Of a DNA stretch of 23,830 nt, positions 3,342 to 9,737 are shown piece after piece. Origin of the DNA: a virus; IMG/VR virus record IMGVR_UViG_3300035698_002964, positions 1 to 23,830 of that record. One strand, written 5' to 3'. Every line of letters starts with the position of its first letter. The first letter of the stretch is position 1. The position numbers were made by a program, and so were the translations under genes. Under the pieces are notes generated by a model. The model ran no database searches, was not told the origin of the DNA, and saw only the letters and a list, made by a program, of their open reading frames with translations.

Positions 3342-4121
3342 ATGAGTACCAGGAGAGAATTGTGTGAGGTAAACGTGGCAAAAAAGAAATGGCGATACGC
3401 TAAATATTGTAAAGCAATGGTGACAACGCTGTGCATATCGCCCTTTATTGCCGACACCAAACGTACACAGGCATGTCCTTTTTGCACGGCACACCTGCAC
3501 AATCTCAACTGGAGTGTGAGAGAATACGTTAAATGGAGGTCAAAGATGACAGACGGAAATAGTTATAAAGAAAAGATTAAATGGGAAGACGCTGATAATG
3601 GCGTTTTCGAAAGTGAACGAGTAATTGAAATCAACAACGGCAAGAACGAAGTACAAGGTCTCAAAACAGAAAAGACCAGCACCAAAGTTACTCGCATGGA
3701 ATTAGAGCTAGGTATGGCTGAGTTACAAAGAAAGACTCACCAGATCAACAACCAAATCATGGTTAAAACCAAAGAGATGGGAACTGATAAACCAAAAGTC
3801 TTAACCGGCGCACAAGTAAAACTCCAACGAGACCTAGGTATATTACGATTAAATGAAATGTATAAAAAGCACGGTCCAGAACTTGAAGGATTACGAGCAG
3901 AGCTTGGACGTACTCAGTTAATGATTAATGAACGTCTTATCACTATGCAATCAGCACCGCATAAAGATTTATCCGAAGAAAACAACCAACGCCTACAATT
4001 ACTTCTTAGAGTGTACGGTATAGGTGACATTGATGTGACTGATGACAACCGACAGGACGTAATCGTTAAACTCAACAAACTGACAGGTCCTAAAGATGAG
4101 CAACAAAGTAATACCAATTAA
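3342..4121 (+). CDS. Coiled-coil protein with N-terminal Cys cluster; possible dual start
   Basis: The open frame gives 259 residues. Residues 1-68 are basic and carry cysteines (YCKAM, TLCISPF, CPFC) that could bind zinc. Residues 69-259 form a charged helical protein with predicted coiled coils (MELELGMAELQRKTHQI; LEGLRAELGRTQLM). Three starts are possible: ATG 3342, GTG 3375 (GAGGT at 3364-3368) and ATG 3546, which has a strong GGAGGT at 3535-3540 and would yield a 191-residue protein without the Cys region. Two proteins from one frame, or an old fusion, are both possible. It overlaps the ParB-domain gene by 26 bases. Function is not recognised. Confidence 0.6.
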   Translation: MSTRRELCEVNVAKKKWRYAKYCKAMVTTLCISPFIADTKRTQACPFCTAHLHNLNWSVREYVKWRSKMTDGNSYKEKIKWEDADNGVFESERVIEINNGKNEVQGLKTEKTSTKVTRMELELGMAELQRKTHQINNQIMVKTKEMGTDKPKVLTGAQVKLQRDLGILRLNEMYKKHGPELEGLRAELGRTQLMINERLITMQSAPHKDLSEENNQRLQLLLRVYGIGDIDVTDDNRQDVIVKLNKLTGPKDEQQSNTN

Positions 4122-4449
4122 GGTACTTGGTTGTTCACTTAAACCTGTAGAGGATTTCGCACCATTCCAAGGTGAACTTAAAGACTTAAGAAAGAAAGGT
4201 ATTGAAAAGATCAAAGCCAACATACTCCACAACGGATTTGTAGCACCAATATTTATCTGGAAAGGTCACGACTTCATACTAGATGGACACCAACGACTAA
4301 AGGCTGTAAACGAATTACTCTCTGAGGGCTGGGAATTAGAGGAGAAGAACGAAGAAGGGAGCTCCTTATTGCCTTATGTAGAAGTTGCAGCTGAAACAAA
4401 AAAACAAGCAGCATGGTCGATCTTGTCGTATGATGGAATTAGATCCTAA
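4096..4449 (+). CDS. ParB/Srx-domain protein, probably truncated
   Basis: This is a 117-residue protein. The core shows the ParB N-terminal domain: 'KIKANILHNGFVAPIFIWKG' (recruitment helix and strand), then 'ILDGHQRLKAV' at 61-71, the D-G-H-x-R motif that binds CTP/phosphate in this superfamily. In many viruses and genomic islands this domain is fused to an adenine/cytosine-N4 methyltransferase. Here the frame ends shortly after 'ETKKQAAWSILSYD', and the end of such a methyltransferase follows in the +1 frame (4418-4519). The gene is therefore best read as the surviving N-terminal domain of a deleted ParB-methyltransferase fusion; it may still make a stable ParB-fold protein. Confidence 0.75.
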   Translation: MSNKVIPIKVLGCSLKPVEDFAPFQGELKDLRKKGIEKIKANILHNGFVAPIFIWKGHDFILDGHQRLKAVNELLSEGWELEEKNEEGSSLLPYVEVAAETKKQAAWSILSYDGIRS

Positions 4450-4519
4450 ATATGCGCAGATTATTATTGCTCGCTGGGAACAGTTTACTGGTGAAAAGGC
4501 TAAGCGTATTGGCGTTTAA
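4418..4519 (+). pseudogene. C-terminal remnant of DNA methyltransferase
   Basis: In the frame of 4418 the translation RSCRMMELDPKYAQ, then IIIARWEQFTGEKAKRIGV and a stop, is the signature C-terminal end of beta-class N6-adenine/N4-cytosine methyltransferases, which normally follows the SAM-binding FxGxG motif. The catalytic and SAM-binding motifs are absent. It overlaps the ParB gene in a different frame, so it is probably what is left after an internal deletion. The codons end mainly in T (GCT, GGT, CGT, GTT), unlike the ParB part. Confidence 0.75.
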
Positions 4520-6582: not shown

Positions 6583-7131
6583 ATGGAGCAGGACAATATG
6601 GGACTAACAAAGAAATCATTAGCAACAACTAAACCTTCTAAGCAATCGAAGGGTGTTAATAATAACACCAAGTACGAAACTTTTAAGGAGGACCTCGTGC
6701 ATGAGTTCTTTGTTAACTACAAGACTGTTAGAGAGGTTTCTGCGACTATAAATATTCCTGTTGCTACGGTTGGTCGTTGGCGTCAAAAGTTGTTCGATGA
6801 GCTTGGTACTTTGTCTAAGGAGCGTATCAGTGCCTTACAGAAAAAGTTTACTATTGAGAGTTTATCCAATCTTAACTTTTCGAAAAAAGCAGCTCTAGGT
6901 ATTTATGGCACTCCTGGCGCTGATCTTAAAGAGAAGGCTATTGCTCTTAAAGTGTTGAATCAAACTATTAAGCAAGAACAGGATACATTGCGTGCCTTGG
7001 GTGTTATTAGTCCAGAGAAGCATGACGTGTCTGTTGATTTCCCTGCTAGTCAGATTGTTATTAATCCTTTGAGTATTGCTAAGGTTAAGCAGATGCAGAA
7101 GGATAACCTCAAGAAAAAGAATAAAACTTAA
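6583..7131 (+). CDS. terS: Terminase small subunit
   Basis: This is a 182-residue protein starting at ATG 6583; ATG 6598 is an alternative. An N-terminal helix-turn-helix lies at about 47-72 (YKTVREVSATINIPVATVGRWRQ in pattern: helix, 'SATINIPVATVGRW' turn and recognition helix). A helical middle (LSKERISALQKKFTIESLSN; GADLKEKAIALKVLNQTIKQ) would drive oligomerisation, and a basic Lys-rich tail (KDNLKKKNK) ends it. Terminase small subunits form rings that recognise the viral DNA and load it onto the large subunit. Size, domain order and position directly before the first copy of the terL 5' end support the call. Confidence 0.75.
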   Translation: MEQDNMGLTKKSLATTKPSKQSKGVNNNTKYETFKEDLVHEFFVNYKTVREVSATINIPVATVGRWRQKLFDELGTLSKERISALQKKFTIESLSNLNFSKKAALGIYGTPGADLKEKAIALKVLNQTIKQEQDTLRALGVISPEKHDVSVDFPASQIVINPLSIAKVKQMQKDNLKKKNKT

Positions 7132-7249: not shown

Positions 7250-7435
7250 ATGGACATGAAAGAAATACAAGAATACTTACAAGAGAAAGGCTATACATAC
7301 CTTATTTACAACAAAGAAGAAGCCATCAGTAGAGTAGAAGTAGACTTTACACCTAAACAACTTGACGCATGGGAGTTCTTACACGACAACGAAACAACAG
7401 AAATCTTTTACGGTGGAAATTATGAAATCGATTGA
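7250..7435 (+). pseudogene. Truncated 5' end of terminase large subunit (terL copy A)
   Basis: ATG 7250 has the strong site AGGAGG at 7236-7241. The first 22 residues are unique; then 7318-7417 is identical, base for base and in the same frame, to 8372-8471 of the intact terL. The frame leaves the terminase sequence just before the Walker A residues (after FYGG) and stops at 7435 after NYEID. It may be the original terL start, cut off by insertion of the 7418-8371 cassette, or a duplication. A 61-residue product without ATPase motifs could be made, but terminase function is excluded. Confidence 0.8.
7318..7417 (+). repeat. 100-bp perfect direct repeat, copy A
   Basis: It is identical over 100 bases to 8372-8471. 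Sequence differs immediately outside both ends (A versus C before, A versus G after). It encodes the residues from EAISRV to FYGG of the terminase. Confidence 0.97.
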
Positions 7436-7622
7436 TAAATACCTGCAGGCGGGTTGGATCATAAGCGACGAGAACGACTACGTCTACCACTTGTACCGTA
7501 TTAAATCATTCGGTTGGCTATGGTGTTTCTTCTGGTTTATAATCGTACCATTCATAGGAGCCTTAATGTACATAGTGTACTATATTGCCACTAAGAACGA
7601 GAATAAGATGGTGAAGAAATGA
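7422..7622 (+). CDS. Small two-span or hairpin membrane protein
   Basis: This is a 66-residue protein starting at ATG 7422, just past repeat copy A. After a soluble N-terminus (about 1-28) comes a long hydrophobic stretch (WLWCFFWFIIVPFIGALMYIVYYIA, about 31-57) that could form a re-entrant hairpin or one to two spans, then a Lys-rich tail. Its stop overlaps the next start (ATGA). A holin-like or envelope-active role is possible, but no family is recognised. Confidence 0.6.
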   Translation: MKSIDKYLQAGWIISDENDYVYHLYRIKSFGWLWCFFWFIIVPFIGALMYIVYYIATKNENKMVKK

Positions 7623-7777
7623 ATAGCGACCACTTAACCATGGACGTAACCAAGCAGCCAAACGTGCAACAATGCGCAAACTGTAAAGCTAAAGAAACTA
7701 TAAACGATTACTTGCACGAGAGGAGAATCTGCGAGCTGATGCATTGCAAGAAGGCATGCGGTACATTAAGCGAATGA
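7619..7777 (+). CDS. Small Cys-rich protein
   Basis: This is a 52-residue protein; ATG 7619 and the stop at 7775-7777 both overlap neighbouring genes as ATGA. Cysteines at 19 and 22 (CANC) and at 38, 43 and 47 (ICEL, HCKKAC) could hold a zinc ion. It belongs to the set of tiny genes between the two terL repeats. No function is recognised. Confidence 0.5.
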   Translation: MNSDHLTMDVTKQPNVQQCANCKAKETINDYLHERRICELMHCKKACGTLSE

Positions 7778-7854
7778 GTCATCCAGAGTTTGTACGTAAA
7801 GAAGTTAAGCATTCTGTTCCTGGAGAAGAACCTTTGACGGAGATTAAAGGATGA
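7774..7854 (+). CDS. Very small ORF of unknown function
   Basis: This 26-residue frame links two better-supported small genes by ATGA overlaps at both ends, which is the main reason to list it. An in-frame ATG at 7756 would make it 32 residues. Codons are T-ending, unlike those of the neighbours. The product has no motif, and it may be a remnant of a larger gene. Confidence 0.35.
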   Translation: MSHPEFVRKEVKHSVPGEEPLTEIKG

Positions 7855-7979
7855 GAAAAGTCATGTGGCATTGTTCTTATTGTAAAAGACCCAACAACTA
7901 CTGGGAGACTCACTGCAAAGAGTGCGGTAAGAAAAGCGTTTTAAAGAACAACGACTCAGAGTTAGTATTACCAGAGTAA
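7851..7979 (+). CDS. Small zinc-ribbon protein
   Basis: This is a 42-residue protein. CSYC (8-11) and CKEC (22-25) form a compact two-knuckle zinc ribbon with aromatic residues between (NNYWETH). Its start overlaps the previous stop. Similar tiny zinc ribbons are common in archaea and their viruses and may bind nucleic acid or partner proteins. The 7980-8135 gap after it contains no convincing gene and ends in a C-then-T tract (8119-8133) that may act as a terminator. Confidence 0.6.
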   Translation: MRKVMWHCSYCKRPNNYWETHCKECGKKSVLKNNDSELVLPE

Positions 7980-8135
7980 CTTCTGCGTAAGATAGGGGAG
8001 CTGACTATAGGGTACGACAAGTAAAGAATACGAGATATAGGAGAATGGATTTATCTATTTATAATATGTTACTATGCTAACTAAACCTCTTAACACACCA
8101 CTAGTGCACTTGATGATGCCCCCGCCTTTTTTTCG

Positions 8136-8148
8136 TAAGAGTTTTAAA
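8136..8148 (+). promoter_or_regulatory. Late-type promoter variant, TAAGAGTTTTAAA
   Basis: It differs from the TAAGCGTTTTAAA form at one base and ends 23 bases before ATG 8171. A GGCTTAACC sequence (8162-8170), one mismatch from the GGTTTAACC operator, lies directly before the ATG. It would drive the membrane gene and terL. Confidence 0.55.
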
Positions 8149-8170
8149 CAAGCGAGTCCATGGCTTAACC

Positions 8171-8386
8171 ATGCACAAAAGAATACAAAACATTCTACGC
8201 TCTTTACTATCAGTTATTGAACTACCCCTAAGTGCAATAATAGCTATTTCTATATTACTAATCTTTCGAAGTGATGAATCAACAGGCCTATGGGTCTTAC
8301 TAACATTATACATTTACTGGCATGCATTACTAATGACCTGGCCAGAGATGGGGGATTGGATACAACATGCCAGAAGCCATCAGTAG
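8171..8386 (+). CDS. Two-span membrane protein overlapping terL
   Basis: This is a 71-residue protein with two hydrophobic segments (SVIELPLSAIIAISILLIF at about 14-32; LWVLLTLYIYWHALLMTW at about 40-57), a basic N-terminus and a polar tail. It has no Shine-Dalgarno site; the late-type TATA box suggests leaderless mRNA. The last codons (ending HQ and stop) are formed by the first bases of repeat copy B, so the gene's end was created or altered when the repeat arose. The size and two spans resemble holins, but that is not proven. Confidence 0.6.
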   Translation: MHKRIQNILRSLLSVIELPLSAIIAISILLIFRSDESTGLWVLLTLYIYWHALLMTWPEMGDWIQHARSHQ

Positions 8387-9737
8387 AGTAGAAGTAGACT
8401 TTACACCTAAACAACTTGACGCATGGGAGTTCTTACACGACAACGAAACAACAGAAATCTTTTACGGTGGAGCAGCAGGCGGTGGTAAGAGTTGGCTAGG
8501 ATGTATATGGCTACTTAGCAATTGCTTATCAATGCCAGGAAGTCGTTGGCTAATGGGTCGAGCAAAACTAGTAGCATTAAAACAATCAACACTATTAACC
8601 TTTTTTGAAGTATGCCAAGAGTTCAATTTACGAGCAGGCGAACACTACACGTACAACAGCATGAGTAACGTGATTAAATTCTATAATGGCAGTGAGATAT
8701 ATCTTAAAGACTTATGCTTATACCCTGCGGACCCAGAGTTTGACAGCTTAGGAAGTACAGAATATACTGGAGCATTCATTGATGAAGCCAGTCAGATTAC
8801 AACTAAAGCAAAGAACATTGTAGCAAGCCGTTTACGTTATAAATTGCAATTATTCGATACTATACCTAAGCTATTAGTAACTAGCAATCCAGCAAAGAAC
8901 TTCTTATACTCAGAGTTCTACAAACCTTTTAGACAAAAAACACTCATCAAATACCGAAAGTTTGTAGCTGCACTAGTAACCGATAACCCATTCATCAGTC
9001 CACACTATATAGAGAATCTTAAGAAGTTAGCAACAACAGACCCTGTAGCTTATGAACGATTGTATAAAGGTAATTTCGAATATGACGATGACCCTTCACG
9101 GATCTTTGAGTTTGATGACTTACAAGACTTGTTCACTAATGAGCATGCAAAGAAAGCAGGTGGCGAAGGGTTCTTATCCATTGACGTCGCAAGGTTCGGA
9201 CAAGATAGAAGTATCTTCTACCGTTGGGAAGGATTACATCTTGCAGAAATTAAAGCTTATAAAAAACTCGCTATCGATGAACACGAGACTATAGCATTAC
9301 AACTTTGCGAAGAACATAACATACCACGAAGTCATGTAGTCATAGATGAAGATGGTGTCGGTGGTGGCCTAGTAGATAATCTCCGGGGATGTAAAGGATT
9401 CATTAATAATGCAAAGCCTAAAACAGAAAGCAAGAAAAGAAACTATCAGAACCTAAAGACTCAATGTTACTTCAAACTAGCAGAATATGTACGCGATCAC
9501 AAGATAAGCATATCAACACATGCAGAGTACCGAGACTTTATAATCAGTGACCTGGAGCAGGTTAAAAGAAAAGACAGTGACAAAGACGGCAAGGTAAAAC
9601 TACTAGGTAAGGATCAGATGAAAGAACACTTAGGACGTAGCCCTGACTTTGGTGATGCTATGATGATGCGCATGTTGTTCGAAGTACAATCAGGAAGAAG
9701 TGTGGTGCTATTTGATACTAAAGGGTCTTTCTTGTGA
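8367..9737 (+). CDS. terL: Terminase large subunit (packaging ATPase-nuclease)
   Basis: This is a 456-residue motor that pumps DNA into the prohead and cuts it. Walker A is GGAAGGGKS at 34-42, Walker B with catalytic glutamate is AFIDE at 136-140, and the coupling motif is TSN at 172-174. The RNase H-like nuclease half has D273 (FLSIDVARFG), D327/D329 (VVIDEDGVGG) and D427/D430 (SPDFGDAMM). Size and motif order are typical and the gene looks intact. ATG 8367 has no good ribosome site and lies inside the upstream membrane gene, so translation may be coupled. The start lacks the 22 extra residues that precede the same sequence in copy A. Confidence 0.95.
   Translation: MPEAISRVEVDFTPKQLDAWEFLHDNETTEIFYGGAAGGGKSWLGCIWLLSNCLSMPGSRWLMGRAKLVALKQSTLLTFFEVCQEFNLRAGEHYTYNSMSNVIKFYNGSEIYLKDLCLYPADPEFDSLGSTEYTGAFIDEASQITTKAKNIVASRLRYKLQLFDTIPKLLVTSNPAKNFLYSEFYKPFRQKTLIKYRKFVAALVTDNPFISPHYIENLKKLATTDPVAYERLYKGNFEYDDDPSRIFEFDDLQDLFTNEHAKKAGGEGFLSIDVARFGQDRSIFYRWEGLHLAEIKAYKKLAIDEHETIALQLCEEHNIPRSHVVIDEDGVGGGLVDNLRGCKGFINNAKPKTESKKRNYQNLKTQCYFKLAEYVRDHKISISTHAEYRDFIISDLEQVKRKDSDKDGKVKLLGKDQMKEHLGRSPDFGDAMMMRMLFEVQSGRSVVLFDTKGSFL
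8372..8471 (+). repeat. 100-bp perfect direct repeat, copy B
   Basis: This is the second copy of 7318-7417, at an offset of 1054 bp. It encodes residues just before Walker A in the intact terL, in the same frame as copy A. Recombination between copies would remove 1054 bp and give an uninterrupted longer terL directly after terS. Confidence 0.97.

Follow-up and report, generated by a model that had tools for sequence, protein, structure and literature searches.

The 5' end of the terminase large subunit gene terL is present twice in this viral contig, and we propose that a recent, local, out-of-register recombination in the virus duplicated it, a reading to which we assign a probability of about 60%. 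The window, that is the whole stretch of DNA analysed, is the linear IMG/VR virus record IMGVR_UViG_3300035698_002964 of 23,830 bases. The exact, same-frame direct repeat of 100 bp named in the preliminary description is present in this contig. Its two copies are spaced by 1054 bases, are identical at 100/100 positions and lie in one reading frame (ORFs from 7250 and 8367). In 20 mononucleotide shuffles of the window the longest exact repeat was 13-16 bases, and with copy A taken out the longest exact repeat of the window itself is 16 bases. The repeat and the gene that opens with its second copy are:

7307..7317, plus strand, imperfect left extension of copy A, TACAACA + AAGA
7318..7417, plus strand, copy A of the repeat, exact 100 bases, without the terL start codon
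8361..8371, plus strand, imperfect left extension of copy B, TACAACA + TGCC, containing the terL ATG
8372..8471, plus strand, copy B of the repeat, exact 100 bases
8367..9737, plus strand, intact terminase large subunit, 456 aa (Pfam Terminase_6N and Terminase_3; PHROG terminase large subunit)

To the left of the 100 bases, four mismatches (AAGA in A, TGCC in B) are followed by seven identical bases, TACAACA, and the chance of such a 7-base match so near a random junction is ~5e-4 to 1e-3. Since the similarity continues past the mismatches, the homology block comprises 111 nt and not 100, with 96% identity and a single four-base difference; to the right, homology ends at GGTGGA. The four-base difference sits on the terL start codon, which reads ATGCC in B and AAAGA in A. 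The 100-base identity means either that the repeat is of recent origin or that conversion between the copies is ongoing. Together with the imperfect homology beyond it, on the left side only, this identity supports a recombination scar.

The earlier statement that the repeat splits terL is not literally right, because the ORF from copy B is full-length. The encoded TerL has an intact Walker A motif and is up to 59% identical to IMG/VR relatives. Interruption of terL by an intron or a homing endonuclease was rejected as well, since terL is intact and neither a significant Rfam match nor an endonuclease domain was found. The related view, in which terL originally started at copy A and was then hit by a cassette, was checked against 98 relatives that lack an intein and have a closed 5' end, by counting the residues between the earliest possible start codon and the invariant Q of the Q-motif. 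This distance is mostly 7-18 residues, with a maximum of 29 from ATG and 36 from GTG. Copy B, at 16 residues, falls within the range of the relatives, whereas the fusion through copy A, at 37 residues, lies beyond the maximum of all 98. Whether relatives lack a copy A-type leader had been set beforehand as the refuting test, and it came out against the original-start view, with a leader this long in 0/98. Given the variable length of the N-terminus among relatives, a longer original TerL is improbable rather than impossible. The normal-length TerL N-terminus of copy B supports a local scar, as does the lack of a second copy of their own TerL N-terminus in the relatives (0/105). Exact repeats of more than 18 bases touching terL were likewise absent from the relatives' viral loci. 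The marks of a local duplication are thus seen here: an identical segment near its source, an intact source gene and no such segment in relatives.

The genes around copy A and within the 1054-bp unit are listed below; the small ORFs (TM and Cys-rich), the strong Shine-Dalgarno (SD) sequence ahead of copy A and the late promoter motif were found as earlier described.

6583..7131, plus strand, probable terminase small subunit (HTH), assigned mainly by its position upstream of terL (sub-threshold HTH_Tnp_1 match, weak DNA-binding PHROG)
7250..7435, plus strand, chimeric 61-codon ORF from the ORF list: 22-residue leader, copy A TerL N-terminus (EAISRVEVDFTPKQ...FYGG), NYEID and stop
7422..7622, plus strand, small one-TM membrane protein (hydropathy 2.24, 1 TM, SD -5.1)
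7619..7777, plus strand, small Cys-rich protein with 5 Cys
7851..7979, plus strand, small zinc-ribbon-like protein with 4 Cys (weak, sub-threshold Pfam zinc-ribbon match, E 0.0018)
8135..8149, plus strand, late-promoter-like motif GTAAGAGTTTTAAAC
8171..8386, plus strand, small one-TM membrane protein, overlapping the terL start by 20 bases

In the copy A ORF the TerL part spans the residues EAIS to FYGG, the leader contains MDMKEIQEYLQEKGYTYLIYNKE, and the ATPase motif is absent. The ORF is preceded by the strongest SD of the region (AGGAGG, -10.2 kcal/mol). Copy A ends in GGTGGA, and these 6 bases serve as the SD of the 7422 membrane gene, whose reading frame overlaps the copy A ORF by 14 bases; translational coupling of the 7422 gene to copy A is therefore plausible, and copy A would now supply the ribosome site of this first membrane gene. 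Copy A likely has either no role or that of a translated leader which couples to the 7422 gene and gives its SD. The copy A leader has no convincing relative in the IMG/VR and phage records searched. In IMG/VR, no confirmed relatives were found for terS, the 8171 membrane protein or the copy A ORF, and the copy A leader and both membrane proteins gave no significant match against phage records. DNA similarity among phages was limited to part of terL, in Flavobacterium phage 11b, and none was seen among plasmids. A 22-mer of the repeat had no match in IMG/VR, where no second record of the virus was found.

In three relatives (L026, L035 and L038) several other small genes lie between a terS-like gene and terL without any repeat, the identity of terS being based on PHROG matches in L026 and on weak or only positional evidence in L035, L038 and the window. 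TM proteins are predicted in this gap of L035 and L038, and the gap of L038 encodes a four-Cys protein like that at 7851. L026 is the relative with most genes in common around terL: it shares terL itself, the portal, a ParB domain and two small genes. A direct overlap of terS with terL is the arrangement in many other relatives. The small genes in the gap of the three relatives show that the terS-terL gap is a variable slot in which a cassette is ordinary; they support a local scar and speak against the earlier idea of a cassette inserted into terL, since the same gap is filled there without a repeat.

The three genes nearest copy A differ in composition from the rest of the window. Their GC3 values are 0.61 (7422 gene), 0.58 (7619 gene) and 0.52 (7851 gene), with z of 4.9, 3.9 and 2.8 against 0.32 for the genome overall, while the 8171 membrane gene (0.31) and terL (0.35) resemble the genome. 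Allowing one mismatch, the motif GTAAGNGTTWTAAAC is found at six sites, all on the plus strand (8135, 9741, 12175, 12634, 16056 and 16731), and with one mismatch it also precedes the portal gene and the protease gene of L083, a relative by the capsid module. The 8135 site is predicted to serve the 8171 gene and terL, which agrees with the earlier notion that terL now stands behind a late promoter. Because of their genome-like GC3 and the shared late motif, the 8171 gene and terL appear to belong to the late programme of the genome, while the 7422-7979 genes appear to be more recent arrivals. The native GC3 and late-family promoter of terL and the 8171 gene also support a local scar. The motif stands 35-80 bases ahead of genes, of which several lack an SD, and it looks like an archaeal TATA box. 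Among cellular matches to TerL the best comes from a Nanoarchaeota MAG. A sigma-70 promoter scan performed no better than on shuffles.

Packaging and capsid modules have different histories: relatives by the major capsid protein (MCP; 58-63% identity) carry a very different TerL, 30% or 24% identical where comparable, and L083 has no detectable match to the TerL of the window. In turn, relatives by TerL (up to 59%) have portals at most 35% identical or none detectable, and the portals at 36-41% identity come from MCP relatives without this TerL. These discordant TerL, MCP and portal relatives mark the terL-portal border as a site of past exchange. A further rearrangement is present in the ParB-methyltransferase gene at 4096-4519 of the window, which has lost ~290 codons by an internal deletion: its ParB part matches phrog_498 38-109 and is followed by a frameshifted tail matching 397-430, while the full-length gene of L026 and L035 encodes 404-408 aa. 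Both the mosaicism near terL and this second deletion scar support a local recombination event.

We infer two steps for this event. A tandem duplication of the 1054-bp unit, comprising the small genes and the first 100 bases of terL, would have arisen by an illegitimate join at GGTGGA|AATTATG. The first, redundant set of small genes would then have been lost when a small ORF recombined with the duplicated terL start over the imperfect match TACAACA-N4-AGAAG, leaving the terL fragment fused in frame to the small ORF with its strong ribosome site. This duplication-deletion route would explain why the right edge is clean and the left one ragged, and also the spacing; one event with two template switches would look identical. 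Two points weigh against it: no near relative with the unduplicated state was found in IMG/VR, so that the order of events is not seen, and an in-frame fusion arises by chance one time in three.

Some of these features would also suit a cassette insertion, in which terL originally began at 7250 and a piece carrying the small genes, the late promoter and a replacement terL 5' end integrated by recombination over the 100 bases, placing terL under late control. The unit is flanked by direct repeats with both copies in frame, the strongest SD stands before copy A, many relatives have terS directly next to terL, and the first three genes after copy A are foreign in GC3. Such an insertion is nevertheless unlikely, as a copy A-type leader occurs in no relative, the 8171 gene and terL look native, as does the promoter before the 8171 gene, and other relatives fill the slot with small genes without a repeat. 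In addition, Pfam and PHROG scans of the ORFs of the unit, and Rfam, revealed no recombinase, intron or homing endonuclease in the interval. The possible join between assembled variants, raised earlier from the exact length of 100, is still a candidate in weakened form: an assembly or library chimera, with one copy A junction absent from the real virus, appears quite improbable. The record is metagenomic, no near relative confirms the contig, and the identical stretch has a round length of 100 bases. Against this, the similarity runs beyond 100 bases across four mismatches, a k-mer join would not be expected to leave a ragged left edge, and 100 is an even number. Common assembler k values are usually odd, with the exception of IDBA-UD, which uses a k of 100. 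Each copy has its own two flanks, and all four junctions would need a real or a chimeric molecule behind them; if every molecule had a single copy, a graph error alone would need chimeric reads or an excised circle to join them, and such a circle would itself imply a real event.

As described earlier, recombination between the copies would delete 1054 bp; the reading frame would be kept, and TerL would lengthen to 477 aa by arithmetic. Such an excision could take place. We regard it as very doubtful that excision serves as a population-variable switch between a late TerL of 456 aa and one of 477 aa made from the SD after terS. Perfect 100-bp homology at 1 kb, in one frame and with genes intact in both predicted states, would suit a switch; however, no excised form and no conservation of the repeat appeared in any collection searched, a dedicated recombinase is lacking, and the long leader falls outside the range of the family. 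Still less credible is that the start-less TerL N-terminus has been retained for its expression and regulates packaging, either as a free N-terminal peptide or through an excision switch to the 477-aa TerL. A separate TerL N-terminal peptide is at least conceivable, because L012 and L052 stop TerL at Walker A via TARCA. These relatives carry 5 extra nt (TAGCA and TAACA; L012 ~285-310, L052 1684-1707) at the same Walker A codon position, which creates an in-frame stop, and deleting the 5 nt restores GGGAGGGK(S/T). A scan for TARCA insertions returned both and one unrelated chance match, L129; a programmed frameshift or hop, the scar of an element, or an error common to one study are candidate causes.

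In L064, L067, L068, L070, L072, L073, L074, L076 and L077, TerL carries a long, intein-like insertion in frame at its Walker A. The repeat ends four codons before the GGAAGG insertion point of L067; unlike these relatives, the terL of the window carries no insertion and its Walker A is intact. Integrated elements that restore a gene end share with the window the flanking direct repeats derived from the end of the target gene, one of which completes that gene, and the supply of a new promoter. This comparison was rejected because the unit encodes no site-specific recombinase or integrase in the Pfam and PHROG scans of its ORFs, and the predicted empty site is present in 0/98 intein-free relatives. 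Amplification of T4 gene 17 (terL) repeats the whole gene in tandem. Such mutants resemble the window in showing rearrangement and duplication in the terminase region, but only 100-111 nt of the terL 5' end are repeated here, and with 111 nt in place of a whole tandem terL an amplification of the T4 type was discarded. Since gp16-dependent amplifications are reported around the pac site of bacteriophage T4, rearrangement near terminase genes has precedent (PMC3012670). The mosaic junctions left by illegitimate recombination in dsDNA tailed phages are a close parallel: there, too, small accessory genes occupy a variable slot next to a conserved gene of a module, with a scar at the boundary and mosaic ancestry of adjacent modules. 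Unlike those junctions, the scar here is an identical, in-frame partial duplicate of a core gene that is still present. No paper on a partial terL duplication was found in the literature searched.

An ordinary recent recombination scar is thus the most likely explanation, and an exact repeat at a core gene is no proof that the gene was split by a cassette. If real, the duplication would be a fresh snapshot of how the terS-terL gap is rearranged in tailed viruses, and as an unstable repeat it could be tracked while it is lost or used.
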